A stretch of DNA of 64,000 nucleotides from Pseudarthrobacter sp. NIBRBAC000502770. Lineage in GTDB: Bacteria > Actinomycetota > Actinomycetes > Actinomycetales > Micrococcaceae. Position numbers and translations under genes: made by a program. Of this stretch, positions 33,948 to 47,524 are shown piece by piece; position 1 is the first letter of the stretch, and each line of letters starts with the position of its first letter. The notes beneath the pieces are model-generated. The model had not been told where the DNA came from. It saw only the letters and a program-made list of their open reading frames with translations, and did not search any database. Location: the NCBI RefSeq assembly GCF_006517815.1, contig NZ_CP041198.1:2790001-2854000 (forward strand), read 5' to 3'.

Positions 33948-34091
33948 TCAGCGCCCCAGGGCCGCCAGCACTACGGCAACAGTTCCCACAGCCAAGAACG
34001 CCAGGCCGACGTAGGACGTCGCCCTTTGCCGGCGGCGGCGCAACTCCCTGCGTGAGTAACGCGCATCGTAACTTCCCCCATATTTACCCAT
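33948..34091 (-). CDS. 47-aa membrane microprotein, paralogue of the one at 47.2 kb
   Basis: 47 residues: MGKYGGSYDARYSRREL, a run of arginines, then one span (LAFLAVGTVAVVLAALG). It matches the microprotein at 47244-47387 in length and in GGSYD-x-R-x-S-x-R, SYV-x-LA and the span. No ribosome site is seen; TAATCT lies 6 bases before the ATG, so the message is probably leaderless. A direct repeat CTCAAC-N5-CTCAAG lies upstream. It is co-directional with and just before the amidotransferase gene. Confidence 0.7.
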   Translation of the reverse strand: MGKYGGSYDARYSRRELRRRRQRATSYVGLAFLAVGTVAVVLAALGR

Positions 34092-34097
34092 GGCCAC

Positions 34098-34130
34098 AGA
34101 TTAGGAATGCAAGCTCAACGTTTCCTCAAG
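34098..34130 (-). promoter_or_regulatory. leaderless promoter with 11-bp direct repeat
   Basis: The minus strand has -10 TAATCT (34098-34103) six bases before the ATG. Ten bases upstream are CTCAAC (34114-34119) and CTCAAG (34125-34130), written on the plus strand, repeating every 11 bp over the -35 position. Response regulators of the OmpR/PhoB class bind such repeats. The same geometry is seen at 47394-47426. Confidence 0.55.
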
Positions 34131-34154
34131 ATGGAAACATGTGACTGCCAATTT

Positions 34155-34595
34155 CTATCCGATGAACAACTCCAGCTGGTCCGTGGTCCGCTGGCCGGCG
34201 TAGGTAATCCTGCGAAGGTACTTCGCAGCGAGCCCCGGCAACGCACCGGCCGGATCGGATCCGTTGTCCGCGCAGCGGAGGTCCTCCTCCAGTTCGAGGG
34301 CAACGCCGGCCAGGTGCATGGCCCCCACCATCTGCGCCGACGTCCGGAGACTCAAAACGGCTGCCATCGCGCCCTTGCCGTCACCGCTGGTCAGGGTGCT
34401 GCGGATCTTCTCGATCCTGGGCGGCATCTGATCGATGAAGTCCCGGACGAATACCTTCCAGATGCCGTCGTCATAATCCGTTTCGGCCCGCAACAGTGCC
34501 AGGACAGAGTCATCCAGCACGGGCAGGTTCGGGCTTTCCTCCTGGTTCACGGCTCCCGCAGCGCCCCTGGCGCCTAAGGTTTCCCTTCCATACAC
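34155..34595 (-). CDS. HPt-like protein lacking the phosphorylatable histidine
   Basis: About 146 residues from the GTG at 34595 (GGGGGAG upstream). The core resembles a histidine phosphotransfer domain: DDSVLALL, FIDQMPPRIEKIRS, then LSLRTSAQMVGAMHLAGVA, LELEEDL. In real HPt proteins that helix reads H-x-LK-G; here Leu stands in place of His (about residue 81). It may bind a partner without relaying phosphate. The microprotein promoter lies 25 bases past its stop. No kinase gene is near. Confidence 0.6.
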   Translation of the reverse strand: MYGRETLGARGAAGAVNQEESPNLPVLDDSVLALLRAETDYDDGIWKVFVRDFIDQMPPRIEKIRSTLTSGDGKGAMAAVLSLRTSAQMVGAMHLAGVALELEEDLRCADNGSDPAGALPGLAAKYLRRITYAGQRTTDQLELFIG

Positions 34596-34699
34596 ATGCT
34601 CCCCCTTGCAAGTACGTTTCCGAACCAACGCCGACGCTACGCGCTGGGCGTAGGAGGGCACACGAGTAGGGGGTACTCAAGTTTCCGGGTGCAGGACGC

Positions 34700-36100
34700 T
34701 TAGTGGTGGAAAGCTTCCTTCTGCTGCTCTTCCGGCATGGGCCCCGCCAGGGCATCCAGGTACGCCACTTCCTTCTGGAGGTCGGCCACGAAGCTGGCGG
34801 CGAGGTCGCGGGTGAACCCGTTCCGGACCACGATCCGCTGCACGGTGATGTCGCTGAGGCCGTCCGGCAGCGGGTAGGCCGGGACCAGCCAGCCGTTCAT
34901 GCGGAGGCGCTCGGAGAGGTGGTGGAGGTTCCAGTTCTTGGTGTGGCCGTCGGTGAGCTGCCAGGCGAAGACCGGGATGTCGGACCCGTCGCTCCAGAGG
35001 GTGAAGGCGTCCATGGCGCCGATCTCGTGGGAGAGGTAGAGGGCCACGTCGCGGCAGCTTGCCTGCACGGACCGGTAGCCGGCGAAGCCCAGCCGGAGGA
35101 ACAGGTAGTACTGCAGCAGCACCTGGGCGGCGGGCCGGGAGAAGTTCAGGGCGAAGGTGGGCATGTCCCCGCCCAGGTAGCTGACGTGGAACACGAGGTC
35201 CTCGGGCAGGGCGCCAGCGTCCCGCCACACGATCCAGCCCAGGCCGGGGTACACCAGCCCGTACTTGTGTCCGGAGGTGTTGATGGAGGCCACCCTGGGG
35301 AGCCGGAAGTCCCAAACCAGTTCCGGCTGCAGGAACGGGGCCACCATGGCCCCGGAGGCGCCGTCCACGTGGATGGGGATGTCCAGCCCGGTGTCCGCCT
35401 GGATGGCGTCCAGTGCGGCGGCGATCTGCTCCACGGCTTCGTAGGCGCCGGTGTAGGTGACGCCCATGATGGCCACCACGCCGATGGTGTTCTCATCCAC
35501 GTAGCGTTCCAGGCCGTGGCCGTCCAGGGCGGGGTGCTCGGCGGATACGGGCACGTAGCGGGCTTCCACCTCGAAGTAGTTGCAGAACTTTTCCCAGCAG
35601 ACCTGAACGGCGGAGCTGAGGACGATGTTGGGTGAGTCGGTGGGCTTCTTGGCGGCACGACGGCGGTGTTGCCACCGGCGCTTGAGCGCCAGCCCGCCGA
35701 GCATGCACGCCTCGGAGGAACCCACGGTGGAGGTGCCGACGGCGGCGGCCGGGTCCGGGGCGTTCCACAGGTCCGCGAGCATGCGCCAGCACCGGGTTTC
35801 GATCAGCGCCGTCTGCGGGTACTCGTCCTTGTCGATCATGTTCTTGTCGAACGTTTCGGCGTACAGCTGGGAGGCTTCGCGCTCCATCCAGGTCCCCACG
35901 AACGTGGCCAGGTTCAGGCGGGCGTTGCCGTCCAGCATCACTTCGTCGTGGACCACCTGGTAGGCGGTGCCGGGCAGGGATTCGCCGTCCGGGATGGTGA
36001 AACGCGGGAAGATGGTGGACTCCCCCGGCCGGCTGAACAGGGGGTTCAGCTCCACGCTCGATTCGGGTTCATGCCGTTCGCTCCGGTGTGACCTGGTCAT
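34700..36100 (-). CDS. gadB: glutamate decarboxylase
   Basis: 466 residues, the usual length. The PLP lysine is in SGHKYG (Lys279), with IHVDGASGAM before it and TSTVGSSEA for the cofactor phosphate. The C-terminus ends EAFHH, like the pH-sensing tail of GadB enzymes. It converts glutamate to GABA and consumes a proton, an acid-stress function. The antiporter gene gadC is not in the window. GAAGGAAG precedes the ATG. Confidence 0.95.
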   Translation of the reverse strand: MTRSHRSERHEPESSVELNPLFSRPGESTIFPRFTIPDGESLPGTAYQVVHDEVMLDGNARLNLATFVGTWMEREASQLYAETFDKNMIDKDEYPQTALIETRCWRMLADLWNAPDPAAAVGTSTVGSSEACMLGGLALKRRWQHRRRAAKKPTDSPNIVLSSAVQVCWEKFCNYFEVEARYVPVSAEHPALDGHGLERYVDENTIGVVAIMGVTYTGAYEAVEQIAAALDAIQADTGLDIPIHVDGASGAMVAPFLQPELVWDFRLPRVASINTSGHKYGLVYPGLGWIVWRDAGALPEDLVFHVSYLGGDMPTFALNFSRPAAQVLLQYYLFLRLGFAGYRSVQASCRDVALYLSHEIGAMDAFTLWSDGSDIPVFAWQLTDGHTKNWNLHHLSERLRMNGWLVPAYPLPDGLSDITVQRIVVRNGFTRDLAASFVADLQKEVAYLDALAGPMPEEQQKEAFHH

Positions 36101-36578
36101 GTCCGCTTCCTTCGCCCGTCGTCGCGGCAGGCAGGTGCCTGCCGCTGCACTTCCGCTGTTGCCAGCACTCCGTATTATTCATGCACCGGCTGGGAACGGC
36201 TCCCAGGGAGTCGGGCGTGGTGGCGCGAAGGATGGACGACGGCGGCAACGTCACCAATCGAGGTCAGGGACAGTCCGCGGCGCCGGAGAAAAGACACGTG
36301 CCGCCGCCTCAAATTTGGGGGATGATGAGGCGGCGGCACTGCATCCAAGGTACCCCCGGTGCGGGACGGGCCGGCCGGGATCGGGGCCTCAGGCCGGAAA
36401 CCTTGACGATTTTTTTACGCCCGCGTTTCGCACGGCGCACACCCGCGCCCCTCTCGCCCCGGGGATAGCTGACAGCATGCACAGCGGCTGCACAGCCCTG
36501 CCCTACACCGGGGACAGGAGCGGCCCCAATGCTTGTTGTATTCCCTCCAACTGGAGGACCAACAACGAAGGAGCCCCC
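36101..36578. other. intergenic region upstream of gadB and the 138-aa gene
   Basis: These 478 bases between two divergent genes hold no convincing protein gene. The main visible structure is the long hairpin at 36298-36339. Both flanking promoters must lie here but no strong consensus was identified. Confidence 0.5.
36298..36339 (-). terminator. 14-bp stem hairpin, possibly ending a small RNA
   Basis: GTGCCGCCGCCTCA and TGAGGCGGCGGCAC form a perfect 14-bp stem with a 14-base loop. On the minus strand it is followed by GTGTCTTTTCTCC, weakly terminator-like. No gene ends before it, so it may close a small RNA or a short leader. Confidence 0.4.
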
Positions 36579-36995
36579 ATGAAAACCACCATGAAGTCAA
36601 CGCTGGCCGGCCTTGCCCTCGCAGCAGCAATCGGCGGTGGAGCCTTGGCAACCACGGCGTTGCCGGCGAATGCCGCCACCACCGACTCCAGCACTTCGAG
36701 CAGCAGCGCGTCCGCGACGCAGGGCCAGCCCCGGGACGAGTCAAAAGGCGGCCACCAGGCCAACGGGATCACGGAAACGCTGCTGACCGGTGATACGGCG
36801 ACGAAGGTCACCGACGCCGCGCTGGCCGCGAATCCGGGCGCCACTATCCAGCGGGTGGAGAACGACGCCGAGGGTGCGGTTTACGAGGCCCACATCATCA
36901 AGTCGGACGGCACTCGCGCCACCGTCTACCTGGATGCGTCCTTCACCGTGACCTCCACGGAGACCGGTGGCCCGGGCGGCGGCATGAAAGGCTGA
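36579..36995 (+). CDS. secreted PepSY-like protein
   Basis: 138 residues from the ATG after GAAGGAG. Signal peptide ending ANAATT, a Ser/Thr-rich linker and one PepSY-like unit: TATKVTDAALAANPGATIQRVE followed by VYEAHIIKSDGTRATVYLD. PepSY domains are thought to bind or inhibit proteases outside the cell. The tail is Gly-rich. A bidirectional terminator follows. Confidence 0.78.
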   Translation: MKTTMKSTLAGLALAAAIGGGALATTALPANAATTDSSTSSSSASATQGQPRDESKGGHQANGITETLLTGDTATKVTDAALAANPGATIQRVENDAEGAVYEAHIIKSDGTRATVYLDASFTVTSTETGGPGGGMKG

Positions 36996-37025
36996 GGACC
37001 CGAGCTGGAAAGAGTCTCAGCCATG

Positions 37026-37051
37026 GCGCGTCCGGTGGTCACCGGGCGCGC
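37026..37051. terminator. bidirectional hairpin between convergent genes
   Basis: GCGCGTCCGGTG pairs with CACCGGGCGCGC (one G-U pair) around a 2-base gap. It lies between two convergent stop codons. No U tract follows. Confidence 0.5.
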
Positions 37052-37072
37052 TGCCGCGTCTGCCCGTTGGGC

Positions 37073-37426
37073 TCAGTCCAAACTGGCGGAACGCCGGATG
37101 CTGACGATCCGGACGGCAACTCCTGCCATGACGAGAAAGACTCCGACGGCCATGAGGGTCCAGACAGGGACGGAGTCGGCATCGATGTTCTTGTAGCAAA
37201 CAGCGGCCGCCCCGATGCCGGCCTTCTGCAGGCCTATCAGTTCAGCCGCATGGCTCTCGCGCAGCAGCGGGCTGCCGCAGAGGGGACCCGATGGCTGCAG
37301 TCCGATGACGAAACCCAGGATGTACACGTCCAGCCCGGCAGCAACAATCCACATCCACATCCGCCGCCGCCACGGTCCTTTGTCGCGGACCTTGATGGTC
37401 TTGGCCGGGGAATCTTGCATCGCCAT
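37073..37426 (-). CDS. two-span membrane protein, 117 aa
   Basis: 117 residues from the ATG at 37426. Basic N-terminus (KDRKG-like, WRRRMWMW), a span, an outer loop with two cysteines (GPLCGSP and AAVCYKN), a second span and a basic tail. Domain not recognised. TATGCT lies 6 bases before the ATG with no ribosome site, so it is probably leaderless. Confidence 0.6.
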   Translation of the reverse strand: MAMQDSPAKTIKVRDKGPWRRRMWMWIVAAGLDVYILGFVIGLQPSGPLCGSPLLRESHAAELIGLQKAGIGAAAVCYKNIDADSVPVWTLMAVGVFLVMAGVAVRIVSIRRSASLD

Positions 37427-37504
37427 GGTTCGAGCATAATCGCAGCCGGCAGCAGCTTTCCGCCCCGGAGCGCCCACGACCGGCCCCTTCGCCACGAAGC
37501 GTGG

Positions 37505-37657
37505 TTATTGCCCGGAGCCGGCAGCACCGTTGAGGTAGTGGTACCTGTCGTAACAGTCACGGGAGCAAAATTCCGCAGAGGGAGTGTGCGGAAGCACCTG
37601 GCCGCAAAACCTGCATTTTGGCTCAGGTCGAAAAATCCTAAACACAGTCTTCAGCAT
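37505..37657 (-). CDS. 50-aa zinc-ribbon microprotein
   Basis: A 50-residue frame with KCRFCGQVLPHTPSAEFCSR and DCYDRYHYLNG: a C-x2-C and C-x3-C pair 12 residues apart, as in small zinc-ribbon proteins of the DUF2116 type. There is no signal or membrane part. TAGCCT lies 6 bases before the ATG and no ribosome site is present, which suggests a leaderless message. It may bind RNA, DNA or a protein; function unknown. Confidence 0.6.
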   Translation of the reverse strand: MLKTVFRIFRPEPKCRFCGQVLPHTPSAEFCSRDCYDRYHYLNGAAGSGQ

Positions 37658-37970
37658 GGATGAAGGCTAGGCGCCTGCCCGGCAAATTTGACCAGTAACC
37701 GATACTTGAATTTTCCAGCCCGGATACCTGCCGAACGGCTTCTCCAAAAGGTCCTCGAAACTGTCTTCGCTTGGGGGAGGAAACGCACCCATCTCAAGGT
37801 TTGCAGAATGCACCTACCTAATATGGCGAACGACAGAAGAACTACCTATTCGTCTCCCCTGCATGTGTTCGCCTCTACTGGCTTTCATTATTCCGCCGTA
37901 GGCTTATGCTCTCGGATTCAGGAGATGGTCCGAATACCGCTAGGCCGGCCAAGAAAGCCGCGTAGATGCC
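37658..37970. other. lower-GC intergenic stretch before the 38 kb lipoprotein
   Basis: 313 bases with clearly lower GC than the neighbourhood. Apart from the -10 of the zinc-ribbon gene (37664-37669) nothing is recognised; a 19-codon frame starting at 37907 has no support. Confidence 0.45.
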
Positions 37971-38861
37971 ATGAATCAGCGCCGCAGGAAATTTGTATCC
38001 ATGATTGGGCTGCTCACTTTGGTGCTCTCCCTGCCCAGCTGTTCCAACGACGGCGGCGGTGGCGGCAACGATCCGGGTCCTTCAACCCCACCATCGGGGG
38101 AACAGACCGACAACCCACAGGACACTGGCACCGCGTGGTACAACCGCCAGGGGTGCCCAGCGGACCGGCCCGTCCCCATCCAATACCCGGAGAACGACGA
38201 CCTTTACGAAGGATTGACTATTTGCTATTCGGGTTATGGACCCGTCGAGACCAATTCCGTGTTGAGCAATCACGGGGACAAGGTGTGGGCATTTGTTCCG
38301 GGTTCGTTGGAGCCCTACGTATCCCACACGGACGAAGCAGGCTTTTTCCGCACCACTTTTCTTTCCAATACAAGCCAAAAGTGGTTCCTGGCGCCCGGAG
38401 AGGTGGCGCAACCAAAAAGCTGGCTTTACGATTGGTCACCGGATTCCAAGCAGACCACAGCCTGGGCCGGGTACAAACTTGCAGCTGACAGGTACAAGGA
38501 GATGGATCAATCTCTCTACCTGGCAATACTTAAACACCGTGACCCGAAGGCGGGGGCATTGGCATCGTGCGCCAAGTCCGCGGGCGAGTCCGTGACGTCG
38601 TTCCAAGACCTGACGGACTCCTCCAGTGCCCTTCGGAGGTTCAGTGCCTCGCTCAAGGCCACAACCACAGGCTCCTCTTGCCTTAAGGCTGTGAAGGACC
38701 TCGACGCCGACAACCCTGCGGTAGCCGGCAAGGTTTCCCGCTGGGAGGCTTATACCGACAAGGCGGTGGAGAGTTCGCCGACAGCCACGAAGATTGCCGC
38801 TGCTTTCGAAGACATCTTCAAATTTTGCTCCCACGTGAATGTGCCCAAAATTGGCTGCTAA
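37971..38861 (+). CDS. lipoprotein of unknown function
   Basis: 296 residues with a basic start, lipobox LPSC and a Gly-rich spacer (NDGGGGGNDPG). The extracellular part has six more cysteines (QGCPAD, TICYSG, ASCAKS, SSCLKA, KFCSHV and the final Cys), so three disulfides are possible. Its C-terminal half is helical. Domain not recognised. GC is lower than nearby genes and no clear ribosome site is seen, which may mean transfer from elsewhere. Confidence 0.65.
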   Translation: MNQRRRKFVSMIGLLTLVLSLPSCSNDGGGGGNDPGPSTPPSGEQTDNPQDTGTAWYNRQGCPADRPVPIQYPENDDLYEGLTICYSGYGPVETNSVLSNHGDKVWAFVPGSLEPYVSHTDEAGFFRTTFLSNTSQKWFLAPGEVAQPKSWLYDWSPDSKQTTAWAGYKLAADRYKEMDQSLYLAILKHRDPKAGALASCAKSAGESVTSFQDLTDSSSALRRFSASLKATTTGSSCLKAVKDLDADNPAVAGKVSRWEAYTDKAVESSPTATKIAAAFEDIFKFCSHVNVPKIGC

Positions 38862-38884
38862 CACGGCCAGGGCGCCAGGGCCTC

Positions 38885-39586
38885 TCAGCCCTGCTGCCCG
38901 AACTTCTGCAGGCTGAGCGAGCGGCTCCGGATCCCCTCGATGTGGCTGTTCATCGCTGCCGTCGCCGCCGCAGGATCCCCGGCCTTGAAAGCGTCGATGA
39001 TGGCCTGATGCTCCTGCACCGTGTGGTCGCCGCTCATGTCGTTGTGCACCATGAGCCGGAACCGCTGGATGTGCCCTTCAATGGAGCCGTAGGCTCGGAG
39101 CAGGAACTCGTTCTCGGTGGCCTCCACGATGCGCCGGTGGAAGTTCTCGTCCGCCTGCCAGTAGGCCCGGTAACCCGCGAAGGTGTCGCCCCCATGGCGC
39201 GACGCCTCAAGGTCGCGGTGGAACTTTTCCAGGTCCGCCACCAGCTCCTCGGTTGAGTTGGTGCAGGCAATGCTGGTGCACGCGGGTTCCAGGATCTGCC
39301 GCGAGGTCAGGAGCGCCGCGACGTCGCTGGCTGTCGGTTCGGGGGCCACCTTGTACCCACGCAGGGCTTCGCGGCGGACCATGCCGGTGGTTTCCAGCCT
39401 TGCCAGGGCTTCCCGGACCGGCGTGGAGGACACCTTGAAGCGCTTGGCCAGCCCGTCGATGCTCAGCGGCGAGCCCGTGGAGATCTTGTCATCCAGCAGC
39501 AGGGACAGGATGGCCTCGAACACCTGGTCAACCAGCATGGGCCGGCCGGGGATGAGTACTTCTTCTTCAGGCGAAGCGGCGTTCAT
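38885..39586 (-). CDS. GntR-family regulator (FadR/FCD type)
   Basis: 233 residues: N-terminal winged helix (LSIDGLAKRFKVSSTPVREALARLE) and a C-terminal FCD helical domain with metal-site residues (NFHRRIVEA, HEHQ-like VQEHQAIIDAF). Such proteins sense small organic acids. It is divergent from an ABC transporter and an FMN 2-hydroxy-acid oxidase, and a palindrome in the gap is a likely operator, so it probably represses that operon until its ligand appears. Confidence 0.9.
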   Translation of the reverse strand: MNAASPEEEVLIPGRPMLVDQVFEAILSLLLDDKISTGSPLSIDGLAKRFKVSSTPVREALARLETTGMVRREALRGYKVAPEPTASDVAALLTSRQILEPACTSIACTNSTEELVADLEKFHRDLEASRHGGDTFAGYRAYWQADENFHRRIVEATENEFLLRAYGSIEGHIQRFRLMVHNDMSGDHTVQEHQAIIDAFKAGDPAAATAAMNSHIEGIRSRSLSLQKFGQQG

Positions 39587-39689
39587 TTCGGAATCCTATG
39601 CGAAGTATCGGTCAACGAAGGCAGCGCCAGAGGCGCCTCCGTCACAAGACAATGACCGCGAAAAAGGTGTTGGCGGAAAATCGTGCATG

Positions 39690-39702
39690 ATGTACGGTAC
39701 AT
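39690..39702. promoter_or_regulatory. candidate GntR operator ATGTACGGTACAT
   Basis: A perfect 13-bp palindrome in the gap between the GntR gene and the transporter operon, 117 bases before the transporter ATG. It contains TGTACGGTACA, matching the T-GT-N-AC-A style of FCD-type GntR sites. Binding is inferred. Confidence 0.55.
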
Positions 39703-39806
39703 GATACCGGACAGCGAAGTGATCTGTACCACAGCCGCTGTTGCCCTTCAGGGGTTGGAGGCCCAAGGCCCCCAGCCCCTCCTCCCCCAACTCCGAAGGC
39801 GTATAG

Positions 39807-40721
39807 ATGATTCAGTTTCGATCGATGCTGGTGACCGCGGCCGCAGTATCCATGGCGAGCCTCCTTCTCTCCGGGTGCTCCAACCCCGGGATGTCCTCTT
39901 CCGCCCAGTCCGATGCCCCCAAACCCTCCAGCTCCGCGGAGGCCGTCAAAGTCGACGAAGCCGCCGCGGCAGCGCTCCCCAAGGACGCAAAGGACAAGGG
40001 AACCCTGACCGTCACCATGAGCCAGAGCTCCCCGCCCCTGCACTTCATGGCCGCGGACGGGACCACCATCCAGGGCATTGACCCCGAGATCGCCATGGCC
40101 CTGGGCCAGACGCTCGGCCTGAAGACCGAGGTCAAGAGCGGGCCGTTTGACGGCATCATCCCCGGCATTTCCGCCGGGAAGTTCGACATGGCCATCTCCC
40201 AGATGTCCCCCTCCACCGAGCGCATGAAGGTGCTCGACTTCGTGGACTACTACCAGTCCGGCAGCGGCATCGGCGTGGCCCCGGGCAACCCGCAGAAGCT
40301 CACCATCGACACGCTCTGCGGGAAGCGCGTGGGCGTGCTGAAGGGTTCCTTCCAGGACCTCAAGCGGCTGCCCGCCCTGTCCAAGGCCTGCACGGACGCC
40401 GGCCAGCCGGCCATTGAGGCCATGACCTACCCGGACATGCAAGCCCCCAACCTGGCCTTGACCGCAGGCCGCATTGACGCCGTCTACATCGATGGACCCA
40501 CCCTTGGCTACGCCATCAAGCAGGGCGGACAGATCGAACTGCTCGGCGAGAAGGACGTCTCCCCCGTCAGCATCGGCTTCAAGAAGGGCGCTGGCATGGA
40601 GAAGGCCATCGAGCTGGGCATGGAGTCGCTGGCCAAGAGCGGCAAGTACAAGGAGATCCTGGACAAGTGGGGTGTAGGCAGCGGTGCAATCTCTGACTTC
40701 GCCTTCAACAAAGCGCAGTAG
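39807..40721 (+). CDS. ABC transporter substrate-binding lipoprotein (family 3)
   Basis: 304 residues with lipobox LLSGC. A family-3 (polar amino acid) binding protein: KGTLTVTMSQSSPPLHFMAADG, then GIDPEIAMALGQTLGLK and GKFDMAISQMSPSTERMKVLDFVDYY, the usual motifs. It captures the ligand outside the membrane for the next two genes. The ligand may be an amino or hydroxy acid; it cannot be told from sequence. Confidence 0.9.
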   Translation: MIQFRSMLVTAAAVSMASLLLSGCSNPGMSSSAQSDAPKPSSSAEAVKVDEAAAAALPKDAKDKGTLTVTMSQSSPPLHFMAADGTTIQGIDPEIAMALGQTLGLKTEVKSGPFDGIIPGISAGKFDMAISQMSPSTERMKVLDFVDYYQSGSGIGVAPGNPQKLTIDTLCGKRVGVLKGSFQDLKRLPALSKACTDAGQPAIEAMTYPDMQAPNLALTAGRIDAVYIDGPTLGYAIKQGGQIELLGEKDVSPVSIGFKKGAGMEKAIELGMESLAKSGKYKEILDKWGVGSGAISDFAFNKAQ

Positions 40722-40725
40722 CCCC

Positions 40726-41685
40726 ATGGCCAACACAGCCACGGAACCCGACGCCAAGGCACCGGCCGGCGACGGCCTGGACCGGCAGCTCCTGATGGGC
40801 CGTCCGCACCAGCGCCACGGAGGGTTGTGGCTCACGGCGGCGATCGTCTCGGTTGCGATCTTCCTGGTGGGCTACTCCCTGGTCACCAACCCGCGCTTCG
40901 AGTGGAACATCGTCTTCGGCTGGTTCACCTCGGAGCGGCTGTTCACCGGGCTCCTGCGCACGCTGGGACTGACGGCCATCTCCATGGCCGTGGGAATCGT
41001 CGTCGGCGTCCTGCTGGCGCTGGCCCGGCTGGCACCCAACGCCATCGTGGCGGGGACCGCCGCGTTCCTGGTCTGGCTGTTCCGCGGGGTGCCGGTCTTT
41101 GTCCAGCTGCTCTTCTGGGGCTTCATCGCCGCCATCTACCCGCGCATCGCGGTAGGCATTCCGTTCGGGCCGGAGTTCTTCTCGGTGGACGCCAACGTGC
41201 TGATCACCCCGTTCATGGCAGCCATCCTGGGACTGGGCCTGAATGAAGGCGCCTACATGTCGGAGATCGTCAGGGCAGGGCTCCTGAGCGTGAACCGCGG
41301 GCAGACGGAGGCGGCCACGGCCCTGGGCATGCGGCGGTTCGCCATCCTGTCCCGGGTTGTGCTGCCGCAGGCGATGAAGATCATCATCCCGCCCACCGGC
41401 AACCAGACCATTTCCATGCTGAAGACCACCTCCCTGGTGAGCGTCCTGGCCTTCCCCGAATTGCTCTACTCCGCGCAGTTGGTGTACAGCGCCAACTTCA
41501 AGACCATCCCGCTGCTGATTGCCGCGAGCATGTGGTACCTGCTGGTCACCAGCATCCTGAGCCTGGGCCAGTACTTCATTGAGCGGCACTTCAACCGCGG
41601 CGGCATCACGCCGGGCCGCGGCATCCGGCGCCGCAAAGCCAAACCGGTAAGCCCCGGCATCACCGGCAAGGAGGTCCAGCCATGA
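40726..41685 (+). CDS. amino-acid-type ABC transporter permease
   Basis: 319 residues from the ATG at 40726, 4 bases after the binding-protein stop. HisM/GlnP-type permease: five to six spans and the EAA loop [21 protein letters not shown] followed by [10 protein letters not shown]. The C-terminal tail is basic. Its stop overlaps the next ATG by 4 bases. It forms the membrane channel of the importer. Confidence 0.9.
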
Positions 41686-42446
41686 GCACCGTGATGATCG
41701 AGGCGCAGGGCGTCACCAAGAGCTTCGGCGACCTGGAAGTCCTCAAAGGCATCGACCTCACCGTCCCCAAGGGCAGCGTCACCTGCATCATCGGGCCGTC
41801 CGGCTCCGGCAAGTCCACGTTCCTCCGCTGCATCAACCAGCTGGAAACGCTCGACGGCGGGTACATCCTTGTGGAGGGACAGCCGGTTGGCGTGAAGGTC
41901 AGGAAAGGCCGGCTGCATGCGCAGAACAACGCCGAGGCCGCGAGGATGCGCGAGAACATCGGCATGGTCTTCCAGAGCTTCAACCTCTTCCCCCACATGA
42001 CGGTGCTGGAGAACATCTGCGAGGCGCCGGTCCGGGTGAAGAAGGAGAACCGGAAGGCCGTCCAGGACCGGGCCCGGGTCCTCCTGGAGCGGGTGGGCCT
42101 GTCCGAGAAGGTCCACGCGTACCCGGCGTCCCTGTCCGGTGGACAGCAGCAGCGCGTTGCCATCGCCAGGGCACTGGCCATGGAACCGCGGCTGATGCTG
42201 TTCGACGAGCCAACCTCGGCCCTGGACCCGGAGCTGGTGGGCGAGGTCCTGGACGTCATGCGCAAACTCGCGGACGGCGGCATGACCATGATCGTGGTCA
42301 CCCACGAGATCGGCTTCGCCCGCGAAGTGGGCGACCACCTGATCTTCATGGACGGCGGCGGCATCGTGGAGCAGGGCGACCCGCGGACGGTCCTGCGCGA
42401 ACCCCGGCATGAACGCACCAAACAATTCCTGGCGAAAGTCATCTAG
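41682..42446 (+). CDS. amino-acid-type ABC transporter ATPase
   Basis: 254 residues. Walker [11 protein letters not shown]-loop [12 protein letters not shown], signature LSGGQQQR, Walker [10 protein letters not shown] and H-loop VVTHE are all intact. It belongs to the GlnQ/HisP family. A 12-residue insert ([12 protein letters not shown]) is common in this subgroup. It drives the importer formed with the two preceding genes. Confidence 0.93.
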
Positions 42447-42469
42447 CCCAAAGCATTGGAGCAGGACCC

Positions 42470-43645
42470 TTGAGAAACAAATGGATTGTCAGCATCGATG
42501 ACTACCGCAAAGCGTCGCGGAAACAGCTTCCCAAGATGATTTCGGACTACTTGGAGGGCGGCGCGCTGGACGAGACCACGATGCGCGCCAACGAGGACCG
42601 GTTCGATGCCCTGATGCTCCGGCAGCGGTCAATGGTGGACCTCCGGGGCCTGGCCACGTCCACCACGGTGCTGGGCCATGACCTGGCGATGCCGCTGATG
42701 GTGGCGCCGATGGGCATGCTCACCATCTTCCACCCGGGTTCGGATCCTGCCGTTGCCAGAGCCGCGGTCCGGGCCGGGTCCATCTTCATCCACAGCGCGT
42801 GGGCCGGCTGCTCACTGGAGGAGGTGGCCAAGGTGGCGCCGAACAACCTGTGGGCGCAGATCGCGTTCTGGAAGGACCCGGAGGAGACCGCCAGCTACAT
42901 CAACCGGGCACGGGCGGTGGGCGTGGAGACGCTGGTGGTGGCGGGCGACGTCGGGTCCTCCAGCAAGCGCGAACGGGACCTTCACCACGGGTTGTCCATG
43001 CCGCCTCGCCCGCCGGTGGCGGACTACTTCAACGCCGCCACCCGTCCGGCCTGGCTGTGGCGCTGGCTTACCGGGCGGAAGATGACCTACGGGAACTACC
43101 AGATCAACGGCCGCCCGCTGCGTATGGATGAGATGAACAACTGGATGGCGTCCAACAAGAATCCGGGCGCCACCTGGGAGGACTTCGCCAGGCTCCGGTC
43201 CGAGTGGAAGGGCAACCTGGTGATCAAGGGCATCATGGACGCCGAGGACGCGGCCCGGGCGGTGGACGAGGGCGCGGACGGCATCTTCGTCTCCAACCAC
43301 GGCGGCCGGCAGTTCGACTCCCAGCCCGCCACCATCGACGTCCTGCCGTCCATCGTGGACGCGGTGGGCGGACGGGCGGAGATCTACCTCGACGGCGGCA
43401 TCCGGCGCGGGCACGACATCGTCAAGGCAGTGGCGCTGGGAGCCAAGGCGGCCCTCGCCGGGCGCCCCTTTGCCTACGCCCTTGCCACCGGCGGTGAGCC
43501 TGCAGTGGACAGGGTGTTCAGCATCCTGCAGGAGGAGTTCAAGGGGGCGATGGGGTTCGTGGGCAAGGCATCCGTTGCGGACTTGGACAGCAGCGTCTTC
43601 GCGGCGCCGGCCCAGCCTTCGCCGGCTGAGAGCATGCTCGTGTAA
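42470..43645 (+). CDS. FMN-dependent alpha-hydroxy-acid oxidase/dehydrogenase
   Basis: 391 residues from a TTG preceded by GGAG. The FMN TIM-barrel shows VAPMGML, the loop VVAGDVGSSSKRERD, KGIMDAEDA with the FMN lysine and SNHGGRQ with the catalytic His and Arg, then LDGGIRRG. Lactate, glycolate and mandelate enzymes share this fold. It oxidises a 2-hydroxy acid to the 2-oxo acid, and as the last gene of the GntR-controlled importer operon it probably works on the imported compound or its product. Confidence 0.88.
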   Translation: MRNKWIVSIDDYRKASRKQLPKMISDYLEGGALDETTMRANEDRFDALMLRQRSMVDLRGLATSTTVLGHDLAMPLMVAPMGMLTIFHPGSDPAVARAAVRAGSIFIHSAWAGCSLEEVAKVAPNNLWAQIAFWKDPEETASYINRARAVGVETLVVAGDVGSSSKRERDLHHGLSMPPRPPVADYFNAATRPAWLWRWLTGRKMTYGNYQINGRPLRMDEMNNWMASNKNPGATWEDFARLRSEWKGNLVIKGIMDAEDAARAVDEGADGIFVSNHGGRQFDSQPATIDVLPSIVDAVGGRAEIYLDGGIRRGHDIVKAVALGAKAALAGRPFAYALATGGEPAVDRVFSILQEEFKGAMGFVGKASVADLDSSVFAAPAQPSPAESMLV

Positions 43646-43665
43646 GTCATCCGCGTGACACGGAA

Positions 43666-43697
43666 GATGCCCGCCCCGCTCACGTGAGGCGGGCATC
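43666..43697. terminator. bidirectional terminator between convergent genes
   Basis: A perfect 10-bp stem (GATGCCCGCC / GGCGGGCATC) with a 12-base loop lies between the oxidase stop and the convergent 68-aa gene. Confidence 0.65.
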
Positions 43698-43751
43698 CCG
43701 CTGCCCGCGCGTAAGGCGTACGACGGCGGTACGCACCGGAGGCAGGATGGC

Positions 43752-43958
43752 TTAGTTGATGAGGTAGGAGTCCTCAGGCTCGGCAGGACCGGATGGCTTC
43801 CGGGCGAACGGCAGGGCACTCACGACGGCCTTGACGCCGATCGCCGGCAGCAACACCGCCGCAGCGGTCACCGACAGCGCAGTGAACCCAACCAGCTCCA
43901 GCGTTTCCCTCTTCGGTAGGCGGCGACGCCGGCGCCCACCGTCCATGAGTTCCATCAT
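43752..43958 (-). CDS. 68-aa single-span membrane protein
   Basis: 68 residues: a very basic start (GGRRRRRLPKRE), one span (LVGFTALSVTAAAVLLPAIG) and a Pro/Glu tail. TAACCT lies 7 bases before the first ATG, suggesting a leaderless message; a later ATG (residue 5) is another possible start. Function unknown. It follows the ParA-like gene in the same direction. Confidence 0.55.
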   Translation of the reverse strand: MMELMDGGRRRRRLPKRETLELVGFTALSVTAAAVLLPAIGVKAVVSALPFARKPSGPAEPEDSYLIN

Positions 43959-44043
43959 GATGACGAGGTTAGGGTTCCGAGGCGACGATTACCCCGGTAC
44001 CGGCTACCTGTCTTTGGATGCAGCCACTACTGGGATAACGGAA

Positions 44044-45417
44044 CTACCGGTACCCGTCCACGATCGCAGCAGCAATTTCCTTGTACGCTCGCCGGGTCTC
44101 CGGCTTCAGCACATCAAGGGTCACCAGGTCGCCGTCGGCGACGCCCCGGTCGTGCGGGACAGCTATGAGTTCCCGGCAGATCCCGGACAGGTGCTCCTCG
44201 ATCGCCTCCTTGTCCACACGGGAAGACACCTCGTCCTTGTCCGTGATGACCACAATCGCGTTGCGGGCCAGGTCCTCATACCCGTGGCTTGCCAGCCAAT
44301 GCAGGGTGCTGCGGGCGCGCTTGGCACCCGACACTGCGTAGCCGGCGGCGATCACCAGGTTGTCGGCCGACTGCAGGATGCCGCTCATTGCGTTGTGGGT
44401 CACGCCCGTGCCGCAGTCCGTCAGCGCCACGGAGTAGTAGCTGGAGATGAGCTTGCGGATCCGCAGGTACTCCTCCGCCGTCAGGGAGTCCGAGACCTCC
44501 GGATCCTGCTCCCCCGCTATCAGGTGCAGCCGGCCGGCGTGGTGCATGTACCGGGCCAAAGCCGTCAGCGAGTCGATGGATTCGATGTTCTCCAGCAGGT
44601 CCGTAATGGTCCGCGGTGACGACTGCTGGTAGATACCCTCACCCAGGGCACGCTCCACCAGGTCCCCGGAGTCCGGGTTGGCGTCGATGGCGCAGGGCGC
44701 ATCCCCCCGGAATTCGGCCAGGGTCAGGCCCACGCCCACCGTGGTGGAGGTCTTGCCGATACCGCCCTTAAGGCTCAGGATGGCCGTATTGTAGCTGCCC
44801 TGGAGCTGGCGCGAGATGCGACGGCCCAGCTCGTCCTCCTGGCGCTGCTTGGGGCCGGGCCCCAGGTTCCAGGCGCCGCCGGTCAGGTTATAGAGGGCTC
44901 CACGGATGCCGCCACGGGGACGCGGCTTCTGCTCCTTGACGAACAGGCCCGGCGAGCTGATGAAGTCCGGCATGGGGCTGTCGGCAATCGCGTCCGCCAC
45001 CGTGGGGCGGCTGCGCCTAAAAGCAGGGGCGTCCGACGGCGGTGCGGCAGCTTCCGGGGCAAGCTCGTCTTGGCGTTCGGCCAGTGGAGTGGCGGGCGGC
45101 ACGGAAGCGATGGGGGGCGCCGAGGGTGCGGCAGCGGGAGGAGCAACAGGCTGGTGCTGGGGCTGCGCGGGAGAAGGTGCGCGGGACGGCTTGGTGGCGT
45201 CGGCTGCGGCAGCGGCTTCCGCCCAGGAGGAGCGGCGTGTGGCCGGTTTCCCGGCGTCGTTGGAACTGGACATTTCGGGGGTTACGGCTGGCATGGTTCC
45301 TGTCCAGGCATCGTCCACTGAGCCGTCGGCACGACGAAGGTCGCGGCGTCGGCGCAGCTGCGGCTGCCCTGCATCCTCTGCTTGGGCGCCTGCACTCTGA
45401 TCCGCCGGATGTGGCAT
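44044..45417 (-). CDS. MinD/ParA-like ATPase with long disordered N-terminus
   Basis: 457 residues. The first 190 or so are Pro/Ala/Ser-rich and probably unfolded, with a conserved-looking SRPTVADAIADSPMPDFIS segment. The ATPase follows: deviant Walker A KGGIGKTS, AIDANPDSGDL and LTDCGTGV. Such proteins with long N-termini are found near type VII secretion and cell-envelope loci in actinobacteria. It may position a membrane or surface complex. No ParB or type VII genes are in the window. Confidence 0.75.
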   Translation of the reverse strand: MPHPADQSAGAQAEDAGQPQLRRRRDLRRADGSVDDAWTGTMPAVTPEMSSSNDAGKPATRRSSWAEAAAAADATKPSRAPSPAQPQHQPVAPPAAAPSAPPIASVPPATPLAERQDELAPEAAAPPSDAPAFRRSRPTVADAIADSPMPDFISSPGLFVKEQKPRPRGGIRGALYNLTGGAWNLGPGPKQRQEDELGRRISRQLQGSYNTAILSLKGGIGKTSTTVGVGLTLAEFRGDAPCAIDANPDSGDLVERALGEGIYQQSSPRTITDLLENIESIDSLTALARYMHHAGRLHLIAGEQDPEVSDSLTAEEYLRIRKLISSYYSVALTDCGTGVTHNAMSGILQSADNLVIAAGYAVSGAKRARSTLHWLASHGYEDLARNAIVVITDKDEVSSRVDKEAIEEHLSGICRELIAVPHDRGVADGDLVTLDVLKPETRRAYKEIAAAIVDGYR

Positions 45418-45481
45418 GTCTGTCCCCCCGGACGTTTCGGCAAACGGTTATGCGGCACTGGTTCAATGAGTAAGTCTAGGT

Positions 45482-45502
45482 GCTGGGCCCGGGATGCCCA
45501 GC
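45482..45502 (-). terminator. short hairpin after the microprotein pair
   Basis: GCTGGGC and GCCCAGC form a 7-bp stem with a 7-base loop, 13 bases past the stop of the 39-aa gene. No T tract follows on the minus strand, so this is a weak call. Confidence 0.35.
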
Positions 45503-45514
45503 CAGGCTGCCTAC

Positions 45515-45634
45515 TCAGTGGTGAATGAGCGCGGCCGCCACCACCGCTGCGGTGAGCACCAGGAGGACGACAAGAATGGTGTAACCCACCCACTTGGGAC
45601 GGCCTTTGTGGGGGTTGATGTCGACGTACGGCAT
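45515..45634 (-). CDS. 39-aa membrane microprotein
   Basis: 39 residues: MPYVDINPHKGRPKWVGYT and one span (LVVLLVLTAAVVAAALI) ending in two histidines. The ATG is 2 bases after the stop of the 56-aa gene, so it is coupled to it. Function unknown; the pairing suggests a two-part membrane complex. Confidence 0.6.
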   Translation of the reverse strand: MPYVDINPHKGRPKWVGYTILVVLLVLTAAVVAAALIHH

Positions 45635-45636
45635 GG

Positions 45637-45807
45637 TCAGCGTTGATTGCCTCTGGGCGCTGGTGCGGGGGCGGAGCGGACGGGGATCCGGATGGCGCGG
45701 CGCTTCAGCCTCAGCATCTGGTACAGGACGGCGAAGGGAACCAGCAGGGTGCCCAGCAAAGCGGTCAATGCCAGGGCGTAGTCCGAAAAAGCCACAGAAG
45801 CCTCCAT
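45637..45807 (-). CDS. 56-aa membrane microprotein
   Basis: 56 residues: a short outer start, one span (LALTALLGTLLVPFAVLY), then a basic stretch (LRLKRRAIRIPVR) and a Pro/Ala tail. It precedes the 39-aa gene by 2 bases. The ribosome site is weak (GGAAAG about 12 bases before the ATG). A direct repeat CTCAAG-N5-CTCAAG lies 76 bases upstream. Function unknown. Confidence 0.55.
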   Translation of the reverse strand: MEASVAFSDYALALTALLGTLLVPFAVLYQMLRLKRRAIRIPVRSAPAPAPRGNQR

Positions 45808-45882
45808 TGGTCAGTAGTCTTTCCATCCCCATTCCGAACCACCCAACCACGCGTCAACGTATTTGACAAATCGAGTCATAAC

Positions 45883-45900
45883 CTCAAGGTTTCCTCAAGA
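45883..45900 (-). promoter_or_regulatory. direct repeat CTCAAG-N5-CTCAAG upstream of the microprotein pair
   Basis: Two perfect CTCAAG copies (45883-45888 and 45894-45899) repeat every 11 bp. On the minus strand they read TTGAGG, and AAATAC follows 17 bases later, a possible -35/-10 pair. The stop codon of the decayed upstream gene lies inside the repeat. Probable response-regulator site. Confidence 0.5.
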
Positions 45901-47124
45901 GGCACCTTGCCTCCCCCGCGGGCCGGAGCAGTCGCCGCCGGCGGGGAGGGCGGGGAGGGCGGTGAGGCGCAGGCGGAGCCCGTTGCGGGACTGGATGTGG
46001 CCGGCGGGGACGTCCGCGGTGATGTCGAAGGTGTCGGCGTTGAGGGTTTGGGGGCTGAGCAGGTAGCCGTTCCAGTAGACGGAGAGCGCGGCCTGGCCGC
46101 CGGTGGGGATGGCGGTGTGGGTGCCGCGGAGTTGGAGGCTGATGGCGGAGACGGGGCCGCCGAACTGGGACTGGTTGACGCCCAAGTAGATTTCCTGGGT
46201 TCCGTTGCCGGCCAGCCGGATGGCCTGGGCGCCCAGGTCCGTGAAGGTTTGTTCGGGTCCGGTGGCGGCGGGGACGGTGGCGGTCATGCCGGTGACGGTG
46301 GCGCCGTCCGTCAGGGCGGATTTGGTGTCTGCCAGGGCGCGTGCGGCGGTGCGGAGGCCTTCGCCGGTGCCGGTGATGGTGAGGGCGGGGCGGCCGGCCT
46401 GGGTCCCGAGCGTGGTGCTGGCGGCGCCGTCCGTACTGCTGATGGTGATGATGCGGGAGCCGGCGGAGAGGGCGGCGGCCTGGGCGTCCAGGTCCGACGG
46501 CGGCACGAGCTTGAGTGCGGCGTCCGGGTAGCGGGGGGCCATGGCGGCGGAGACGTCCGTGGCGGGTTCGGCCGGGACGGGGATGAGGATGGCCGGCAAG
46601 GAGGGGCCAGGAATTCGGCCACGGTGGTGGGGGCGGTCTCGGTGCCCTGGGTGGTAAGGCTGATGCTGCCGAACGTGGCGGTGGACTAGGTGGTGGTGCA
46701 GACGTCCCGGACGGCGGGGTTGTATTCGAGGGCCAAGACCAGCTGGTGGTCGGCGAGGTCTGCCGCGCTGATGGGGGGCGTCCAGGGCGATGGTCCCCTT
46801 GGCGGGCGCTTCGAGGAGGGTCCTGCCTTCGGCGCTGACGCGGATGGTGCCGGTGGTGGGTTGGCCGGTGACGGCGATGCTGCCGGTGATGCGGGCCGGC
46901 TGCAGGCCGGCGGCGACCGGGACGGCGAGCTGCTGGCCGGATTGGCCGGGCATGGCGGAGACGGAGCCCAGGCTGGCGTTGGCGGTGGCCGGGTTGGTGT
47001 GGGTGGCCGCGACGCGTTCCGCGGGTGCTGCGGCGGCTGCGGCGTTGGCTGCGGGCTAGAAATTGGACGGCGGCAAGCAGGGCGCAGGTGAGAACAACGC
47101 TCCCTGCCCGGAGACGTGAAAGCA
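45895..47124 (-). pseudogene. decayed BcsB-like secreted protein gene
   Basis: From an ATG after GGTGGAGG a signal peptide reads MLSRLRAGSVVL..., but the frame then breaks near 47050. Reading resumes as APAERVAATHTNPATA and continues to TIALDAP, breaks again at a six-C run near 46780, meets an in-frame TAG near 46688, and shifts once more near 46605 at GGCCCC. The remaining C-terminal part (RIITISST, NQSQFGG, YWNGYLLSPQTLNA) resembles BcsB-type cellulose-synthase accessory proteins; this match is tentative. Three indels and a stop make a pseudogene likely even if one indel is an error. Confidence 0.65.
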
Positions 47125-47170
47125 TGCCTCCACCTTGGCGGGGCGAACTCACTTTACCCCTCGGCCTACC

Positions 47171-47187
47171 CTCAAGGTTGACTCAAG
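47171..47187 (-). promoter_or_regulatory. direct repeat CTCAAG-N5-CTCAAG upstream of the BcsB-like pseudogene
   Basis: CTCAAG at 47171-47176 and 47182-47187 with the same 11-bp period as the other copies. TAAAGT (minus strand, 47151-47156) could be the -10. It lies 47 bases before the ATG of the decayed gene. Confidence 0.5.
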
Positions 47188-47243
47188 AATGGGTGTTTAT
47201 GCAGGTCAGGCCGGCATCTGGGGTTACGTGTGCGGTGGAGCGC

Positions 47244-47387
47244 TTAGCGCTCAATCGCCATCAGGACCACACCGATGGTGGCTACGGCCAACGCGGCCAG
47301 TGCCACATAGGAGATGTACCGCAGCCTGCGCTGCCGTGCGTCCCGCTTGGAACAGCGAACGTCGTAACTTCCCCCGTGCCTGCTCAT
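47244..47387 (-). CDS. 47-aa membrane microprotein, paralogue of the one at 34 kb
   Basis: 47 residues: MSRHGGSYDVRCSKRDAR, a run of arginines, then one span (YVALAALAVATIGVVLMA). It shares GGSYD-x-R-x-S-x-R, SYV-x-LA and its exact length with the 33948-34091 gene. TATGGT lies 6 bases before the ATG, so the message is probably leaderless. A degenerate copy of the direct repeat lies upstream at the same distance. Function unknown. Confidence 0.7.
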   Translation of the reverse strand: MSRHGGSYDVRCSKRDARQRRLRYISYVALAALAVATIGVVLMAIER

Positions 47388-47393
47388 GCGCCG

Positions 47394-47426
47394 ACCATAA
47401 GGAGCAAATCTTAAGATTGGCTGAAA
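47394..47426 (-). promoter_or_regulatory. leaderless promoter with degenerate direct repeat
   Basis: The -10 TATGGT (47394-47399) lies six bases before the ATG. Ten bases further up are CTTAAG (47410-47415) and CTGAAA (47421-47426), an imperfect version of the CTCAAG direct repeat. The spacing to the ATG equals that of the paralogous promoter at 34098-34130. Confidence 0.45.
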
Positions 47427-47437
47427 ACGTTTGTTTG

Positions 47438-47524
47438 TTACGAGGCTTCGGGGCTGCTGCGCCAGTCCTTTTGGAGCCGCTTGATAAACCACCGGGGCTG
47501 TTCGGGGCCGTAGGCAGGAATTGT
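47438..47524 (-). pseudogene. C-terminal fragment of the MBL-fold hydrolase gene
   Basis: 28 codons read TIPAYGPEQPRWFIKRL... and stop. The end of the intact hydrolase at 53217-54044 reads AIPVLPYGPEQSRWFIKRL..., and the DNA is also alike. No start or upstream domain is left here. It marks the left edge of the polysaccharide island and points to an old duplication or recombination. Confidence 0.6.

Follow-up and report, generated by a model that had tools for sequence, protein, structure and literature searches.

A Micrococcaceae family of predicted leaderless, single-span microproteins, with sequence signs of regulation in one subfamily

Are two open reading frames (ORFs) that each encode 47 residues, lying some 13 kb apart on the same strand of a Pseudarthrobacter genome, similar to each other by mere chance, or do they belong to one regulated gene family? 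The question is raised by a stretch of 64,000 nucleotides from Pseudarthrobacter sp. NIBRBAC000502770 (contig NZ_CP041198.1, positions 2,790,001 to 2,854,000 of the forward strand; hereafter the window), in which a preliminary description, made from the letters of the DNA, had proposed two paralogous membrane microproteins with equivalent leaderless promoters. Our comparison of these genes, here called A and B, with their relatives indicates that they belong to a genuine microprotein family whose genes are, with few exceptions, predicted to be leaderless, and that their own subfamily bears marks of regulation in its sequence. The two genes and the elements upstream of them are as follows, in positions of the window.

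33948..34091, minus strand: microprotein A, 47 amino acids (aa), sequence MGKYGGSYDARYSRRELRRRRQRATSYVGLAFLAVGTVAVVLAALGR
34098..34103, minus strand: TAATCT, the -10 hexamer for A; 6 nt separate it from the ATG, and a leaderless start is predicted
34114..34130, minus strand: 11-bp direct repeat CTTGAGGAAACGTTGAG upstream of A, a predicted response-regulator operator
34140..34145, minus strand: GTCACA element of A; many family promoters have such an element at a similar distance above the repeat (spacing judged by eye)
47244..47387, minus strand: microprotein B, 47 aa, sequence MSRHGGSYDVRCSKRDARQRRLRYISYVALAALAVATIGVVLMAIER
47394..47399, minus strand: TATGGT, the -10 hexamer for B, likewise with 6 nt to the ATG
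47410..47426, minus strand: degenerate 11-bp repeat TTTCAG-N5-CTTAAG upstream of B
47436..47441, minus strand: GTAACA element upstream of B

Both ORFs were confirmed to encode 47 residues on the minus strand, and to have in common the motifs GGSYDxRxSxR and SYVxLA together with a membrane span. The two proteins align without gaps and are identical at 27 of 47 positions (57%), with a BLASTP E-value of 3e-12 in a single comparison. A TAnnnT hexamer separated by 6 nt from the ATG, as the preliminary description had it, is likewise present at both genes. Its further claim, that an 11-bp direct repeat begins 23 nt from the ATG in either case, stood in part: the proximal half-site lies 28 to 23 nt above the ATG at both A and B, and the repeat of A, CTTGAG-N5-GTTGAG, is clear, but the copy of B is degenerate and weaker than had been claimed. 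In four orthologues of B (L009, L038, L039 and L040; L-numbers denote genomic loci and G-numbers genomes, G000 being the genome of the window) the proximal half-site reads CTTGAG. Apart from the strength of this repeat in B, the details of the preliminary description were borne out; the operator does not occur in all copies of the family.

A conserved family of predicted membrane proteins

The search of Micrococcaceae genomes that the preliminary description had suggested was carried out with a family profile built from 33 diverse members, and the frames proved to be conserved. In the Arthrobacter/Pseudarthrobacter genus, matches at E <= 0.001 were obtained in 104 of 206 genomes, some of the weak ones representing a separate 39-aa family that the profile also catches, and the best match reached E <= 1e-10, which we took as confident, in 73 of the 206. 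Several paralogues per genome were observed in some genomes; in the genome of the window, A and B are the only two convincing copies at E <= 0.001, and the third match at that threshold (L003, at G000:C2:2409244) belongs to the 39-aa family. A draw from the whole family Micrococcaceae gave matches in 39 of 395 genomes and in 6 of 32 genera, with only 17 candidates scored per genome, a design under which copies may be missed and some weak matches appear to be false. Outside the genus, the homologues match weakly, with E-values between 4.5e-8 and 9.2e-4. Nine of ten such genomes (G233 was left out) supplied ten stretches for comparison, and after two apparent false matches (L224 and L225) had been dropped, nine copies were retained. 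The family has been seen so far solely in Micrococcaceae, other orders not having been searched genome by genome.

Protein collections gave the same picture. The profile matched 107 clusters among 5.8 billion proteins, and all clusters for which an organism is given come from Arthrobacter, Pseudarthrobacter or another Micrococcaceae bacterium, while a 7-row profile applied to named genome records returned 7 loci in Pseudarthrobacter and Arthrobacter strains. Nearly all named cluster members are called “hypothetical”; one is named after type VI secretion and another after peptidylprolyl isomerase, labels that are evidently wrong for members of a 47-aa family. An example is P0004, a family member of 47 aa that one source calls “type VI protein secretion system component VasK”, evidently in error. 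Neither A nor B found a convincing match in Pfam, NCBIfam or PHROGs (over the curated cut-off where one exists), and assignment to a known family of these databases was therefore rejected. A Pfam scan of the 33 profile members at E <= 0.01 returned just two weak matches, to families of unknown function and with one member each, and PHROGs returned none among the same 33. No published description of the 47-aa family was found in the open-access library that was searched, among the matches listed for the terms used.

From the loci that were fetched, a subset of the genus matches, 89 distinct copies at E <= 1e-10 were retained for comparison, weaker rows being dropped. Exactly 47 residues are encoded in 76 of them. 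Over 99 pairs with 80-98% nucleotide identity, the median ratio of nonsynonymous to synonymous divergence (dN/dS) is 0.25 and the pooled ratio of the corresponding proportions of differences (pN/pS) is 0.32; B differs from six relatives by dN 0.03-0.11 and dS 0.27-0.58, and A from L144, its nearest relative among the copies compared, by dN 0.10 and dS 0.86. These values indicate that the coding sequence is under purifying selection.

The 76 full-length copies also point to a common topology. Lysine and arginine together average 8.1 in residues 1-25 versus 0.5 in residues 26-46, the mean hydropathy over residues 27-45 is 2.47, A44 does not vary, and L33 and T37 are conserved in 75 copies apiece. 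By the positive-inside rule, this distribution of charge predicts an N-in, C-out orientation. An AlphaFold model gave a single helix over residues 6-46 with a mean pLDDT of 72, the last two blocks reaching 92 and 87, and is confident in the C-terminal half only. One hydrophobic helix of about 20 residues, the hallmark of a single-span small membrane protein, is thus predicted, and the family may be described as having an Arg-rich N-terminal half, predicted to be cytoplasmic, followed by one C-terminal membrane span, in a predicted N-in, tail-anchor-like arrangement. On the strength of these comparisons we assign A and B to a Micrococcaceae family of 45-47-residue proteins.

The leaderless register

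For the analysis of promoters, the start of each copy was taken as the ATG nearest to the first position of the profile, and was set in this way by the protein and not by the promoter. Of the 88 copies with 70 nt of upstream sequence, 84 have a TANNNT whose first base lies 12-13 nt ahead of the start codon; when neighbouring offsets between 6 and 64 nt are taken two by two, no pair that excludes 12 and 13 has the hexamer in more than 4 copies. Microprotein A is counted in the 88; B, which has TATGGT at 12 nt, is omitted since its locus ends 12 nt above the ATG. When the upstream sequences were reduced to a non-redundant set of 48 with less than 75% mutual identity, the signature was present in 44, whereas 200 shuffles gave 1.3 on average and never more than 6. 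A Shine-Dalgarno core was found between positions -16 and -4 in 2 of the 88 copies, and the start codons of the 89 copies comprise 87 ATG, 2 GTG and no TTG, in a script whose choice of start favoured ATG. The neighbouring 39-aa family, used as a control, has the -10 signature in none of 65 distinct copies and a Shine-Dalgarno core in 42 of the 65, counted in a window 4 nt wider.

The same register was observed beyond the genus. Seven of the nine diverged and weakly similar homologues, from two other genera, have TANNNT 13 nt before an ATG; these seven are 45 residues long. All candidate starts were considered for the nine, which makes the choice of start less independent than in the 88-copy count. 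The comparison suggests that the leaderless register has largely been kept in diverged homologues of other genera.

According to a survey of bacterial genes, a leaderless gene is the most probable meaning of a TA-like signal situated some 10-12 bp ahead of the start, and leaderless genes make up more than 20% of actinobacterial genes (PMC3160421). The present family shares with these TA-led genes both the TANNNT hexamer about 12 bp before the start and, in nearly all copies, the lack of a Shine-Dalgarno site, and in this respect it is of a widespread and known kind. It departs from the trend described in the same survey, in which the mechanism of initiation shifts between homologues as phylogenetic distance grows (PMC3160421), in keeping its register across divergent paralogues, across genera and behind differing upstream elements. 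In mycobacteria, leaderless small proteins are similarly encoded by small ORFs at the 5' end of transcripts, where leaderless translation is described as starting at ATG and GTG only (PMC4633059); the present family differs from them in being a distinct protein family. Taken together, the existence of the family and its leaderless architecture seem to us close to certain, and transcripts are predicted to begin exactly at the start codon in nearly every copy.

Upstream repeats and the candidate regulator

In the A/B subfamily, the -10 is preceded by CTTGA(G/T)-N5-CTTGAG, whose half-sites end about 10 nt above it. Counted back from the start codon, the tetramer CTTG peaks at 28-29, 39-40, 51 and 62 nt and, less strongly, at 45 nt, and in the non-redundant set the commonest spacing between two CTTG is 11 (12 pairs), followed by 22 (3 pairs). 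Four tandem repeat units are present in L029 and L047, and a CTTGAG-like half-site stands at 28-29 nt in all of 20 promoters that were picked for showing the repeat. A TTGACA-like -35 element (4 of 6 bases or better, at 16-18 nt) was found in 1 of 84 promoters versus 8.2 in shuffles. Promoters activated by response regulators of the OmpR/PhoB type lack a -35 and have direct repeats of 11-bp period, the last of which ends some 10 nt upstream of the -10. Such an arrangement is seen at A and in its subfamily and not in all subfamilies, and we consider it fairly likely, from the placement of the repeats, that the promoters of the A/B subfamily are activated by a response regulator.

Boxes of this kind were also sought outside the family promoters. 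In the genome of the window, CTTGAGNNNNNCTTGAG with at most one mismatch occurs at 20 sites, the box of A included, versus 8 for a control pattern, and two of the five exact sites fall in the window. Across the genus, CTTGAKNNAACCTTGAGG occurs at 41 sites in 31 of 206 genomes versus 2 matches of the control; by position, 15 of these boxes were assigned to family promoters, 6 to BcsB-like genes and 1 to a 56-aa ORF of the window. Two side observations came from these searches. In L097, a reversed CTTGAGGCAACCTTGCC site (911-927) lies in the intergenic region before an Hpt gene beside an OmpR-type response regulator, a weak lead that we do not claim as the cognate system. In five genomes (L183, L186, L197, L199 and L201), a CTTGA-N6-CTTGAGG box stands in similar intergenic sequence and is followed in four by an ATAGTT-like -10; in L183, which belongs to the genome of the window, a stem-loop-like sequence, recognised by eye, comes after the box. 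The boxes of this group could be promoters of a small RNA.

Gene neighbourhoods and candidate roles

The genes and boxes around A and B that bear on their role are listed below.

33068..33937, minus strand: class II glutamine amidotransferase (GATase_4), starting 10 nt after the stop of A, with AGGAG between
34155..34661, minus strand: Hpt-domain protein, immediately upstream of the A promoter
44044..45417, minus strand: MinD-like ATPase with a CbiA domain (25.7 bits versus a Pfam cut-off of 25.4)
45515..45634, minus strand: 39-aa microprotein MPYVDINPHKGRPKW with a span, strongly conserved and without the leaderless signature
45637..45807, minus strand: 56-aa hydrophobic ORF (MEASVAFSDYALALTALLGT...); many genomes have related ORFs ahead of the MinD-like gene
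45883..45899, minus strand: CTTGAGGAAACCTTGAG box upstream of the 56-aa ORF, inside a short stretch at the junction of a deletion relative to L080
45915..47125, minus strand: BcsB-like gene downstream of B, frame-broken and truncated (the homologue in L080 has 682 aa)
47171..47187, minus strand: CTTGAGTCAACCTTGAG box upstream of the BcsB-like gene

The spacing suggests that A and the amidotransferase gene are likely to be co-transcribed. On the side of B, the BcsB-like gene has a perfect box of its own and a Shine-Dalgarno-like GGTGGAGG; the CTTGAGTCAACCTTGAG box also occurs just downstream of the B orthologue in G009, G138, G387, G461 and G507. Relative to L080, the sequence at 45879-45914 is the junction of a deletion of about 4.9 kb, at which the 3' part of the BcsB-like gene and the whole of a GT2 glycosyltransferase gene with an MshEN domain, which adjoins the BcsB-like gene in L080, are absent. 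L068 aligns over most of the stretch at the junction and appears to lack the same part.

Three kinds of downstream context were recognised among the 89 copies. In 44, the 39-aa ORF and/or the MinD-like gene lies downstream; in nine, there is a gene for a NarL-type response regulator, at a distance of 130-155 bp in all but one; and in six, B and its relatives, the BcsB-like gene is next. These partners are on the same strand in 29 of 30, 9 of 9 and 6 of 6 cases, respectively. Eight of the nine have, after the NarL-type regulator gene, a gene for a membrane protein (595 aa in L079), which has no Pfam or NCBIfam match and which it is our own reading to call kinase-like. This response-regulator subfamily (L076, L079, L083, L084, L085, L086, L155, L156 and L172) has an upstream element (CCGAACCC...) unlike the CTTGAG repeat, and its leaderless spacing is identical.

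The MinD-like operon itself is widespread in the genus. Of 101 genus genomes, 94 have a match at E <= 1e-20 to the MinD-like ATPase, for which no Protein Data Bank relative was found by sequence at E <= 0.001; the match reaches E <= 1e-100 in 87, and the remaining seven are distant relatives. The 39-aa family, with the consensus [M/V]PY[V/I]DINPH[K/R]xRPKW and one span, lies upstream of the MinD-like ATPase, and its second copy in the genome of the window is L003. In 20 genomes chosen by an earlier search as lacking a microprotein match, five of which (G003, G007, G037, G058 and G090) do match weakly in the final profile search, the 39-aa ORF precedes the MinD-like gene in 19, L125 having none. 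In three loci from genomes without the microprotein (L122, L129 and L141), a promoter with GTAACA and the CTTGAG repeat has been kept in front of the 52-aa/39-aa/MinD-like operon, and behind this promoter no microprotein ORF can be recognised, possibly owing to decay; a decayed-looking relative is present in G090 (L135), where TTG replaces the start codon.

Two described systems invite comparison by description, not by sequence, and we claim membership in neither. MgrB, the enterobacterial PhoQ inhibitor of the PhoP regulon, resembles the family in its 47 residues, its single span and its response-regulator-controlled promoter, a feature that is here predicted. The family is unlike MgrB in its extended, Arg-rich N-terminal part, in ending almost at once after the span and in its leaderless start, the span of MgrB being given as W6-F24 and its periplasmic part as essential (PMC8404706). 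BcsF and BcsR of E. coli cellulose secretion belong to an operon system with a BcsQ-type ATPase; here, the MinD-like operon is downstream in the 44 of 89 copies mentioned above, and the association is partial, with other contexts too. The likeness lies in small proteins that serve a MinD-related ATPase beside BcsB-type genes (PMC7439463).

We favour, with moderate confidence, a reading of the microprotein as a response-regulator-activated, leaderless, N-in single-span membrane adaptor. Upon a signal, an OmpR/PhoB-type response regulator would bind the direct repeats and activate RNA polymerase, in class-II fashion, at a promoter that has a -10 only; the mRNA would start at the A of the AUG and be translated without a leader; and the peptide would insert in the membrane, where its basic face would bind and tune the machine encoded alongside. 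Candidate partners are the MinD-like ATPase/exopolysaccharide module, the response-regulator/kinase-like pair, or others, and promoter and microprotein would together constitute a cassette set before differing membrane-associated modules. The repeats and the -10/AUG register in this scheme rest on sequence, and its other steps we infer. As for the component on which function depends, that the microprotein is an adaptor or regulator of the adjacent module, we hold it tentatively, as a proposal that falls a little short of probable.

Several observations weigh against this reading. The -10 signature is missing from four of the 88 copies (L034, L050, L175 and L178), CTTG is present at the proximal half-site in 34 of the 88 and at both half-sites in just 25, and the absence of a -35 does not prove an activator because such absence is common in actinobacteria, promoters of M. 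tuberculosis being reported to have no conserved -35 (PMC3898074). No cognate regulator emerged from a scan of the 14 PF00486-matching loci in the genome of the window: none has a site with 10 or 11 of 11 bases, the best sites (four) have 9 of 11, and unrelated sites in the window reach this level at a comparable rate. Nineteen of the 41 genus-wide boxes lie elsewhere, and the 14 of these that were inspected showed no regulator. As regards partners, 102 of 206 genus genomes have no match to the microprotein at all; within reach of 36 of the 89 copies there is no MinD-like operon and no response regulator; some other copies have neighbours on the opposite strand; and the downstream partners vary between copies, that of A being the amidotransferase. 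Judged by gene content, the microprotein is dispensable for the MinD-like operon, because the operon is present in many genomes without a confident microprotein match. In the window, moreover, the BcsB-like gene is broken and the GT2 glycosyltransferase gene is missing relative to L080.

Two alternatives would give the peptide a narrower task. It could be a structural subunit that tethers the MinD-like ATPase and an exopolysaccharide machine to the membrane, by analogy with BcsF/BcsR and BcsQ, and the MinD-like gene and/or its 39-aa partner behind 44 copies, the BcsB-like gene directly behind six and the GT2 glycosyltransferase beside it in L080 are consistent with such a role, as is the report that BcsR/BcsQ reach the membrane via BcsE and BcsF (PMC7439463). 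We regard it as possible but somewhat unlikely, given that many genomes have the MinD-like gene without a confident microprotein match, that other copies stand before a response regulator or other genes, and that B is intact in the window, where its BcsB-like neighbour is broken and the GT2 gene missing. Rather unlikely too, and slightly more so, is an MgrB-like feedback peptide, induced by a response regulator and inhibiting or tuning a membrane sensor kinase: nine of the 89 copies precede a response regulator gene, eight of them with the kinase-like membrane protein after it, A adjoins an Hpt-domain gene, and MgrB likewise has 47 aa and is in a response-regulator regulon (PMC8404706). Against it stand the lack of a Pfam or NCBIfam match for the 595-aa protein that we read as a kinase, the NarL type of the adjacent regulator, whereas the 11-bp repeats suggest an OmpR type, and a topology unlike that of MgrB, whose periplasmic part is described as essential (PMC8404706).

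Other alternatives would deny the peptide such a partnership. Were the ORF a leader cistron, all that matters for the downstream gene would be that the 5' end is translated leaderlessly, and the peptide would be a by-product; its promoter-proximal position, co-directional with conserved downstream genes where these are present, and the 10 nt between the stop of A and the amidotransferase start would suit this idea, which is nonetheless improbable in view of the purifying selection on the amino acids, the near-fixed length, the near-invariant span residues L33, T37 and A44, and the distance of some 250-580 nt to the 39-aa ORF where present, with another small ORF between in several copies. A small hydrophobic membrane toxin of the TisB/Hok kind, kept in several copies, would likewise be small, basic and single-spanning, with several paralogues in some genomes, and toxin-antitoxin genes of M. 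tuberculosis are reported to be predominantly leaderless (PMC3898074); the conserved Arg pattern, the activator-type operator in one subfamily and the empty PHROGs search of 33 members make it more improbable still, and no antitoxin or antisense unit was noticed, though no search aimed at them was made. The possibility of chance frames resembling each other, which has nothing in its favour beyond their shortness, is negligible and was rejected on the conservation in 89 distinct copies, the dN/dS values and the promoter register. The proposal of the preliminary description, one regulated family and not chance frames, is supported by that conservation, the purifying selection, the near-invariant leaderless spacing and the 11-bp half-sites of the subfamily.

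What the analysis adds is an undescribed microprotein family in common soil bacteria. Because its register is kept in 84 of 88 copies, behind differing upstream elements and in seven of nine homologues of other genera, the family may serve as a compact natural experiment on whether leaderlessness is selected or incidental. That leaderlessness itself bears a function, the cassette swapping its operators and partners while keeping the 12-13 nt from -10 to AUG, is an unlikely but consequential proposal: if true, the peptide would be made preferentially when leaderless translation is favoured, as under stress or with altered ribosomes, and the translational state of the cell would be coupled to its membrane machines.

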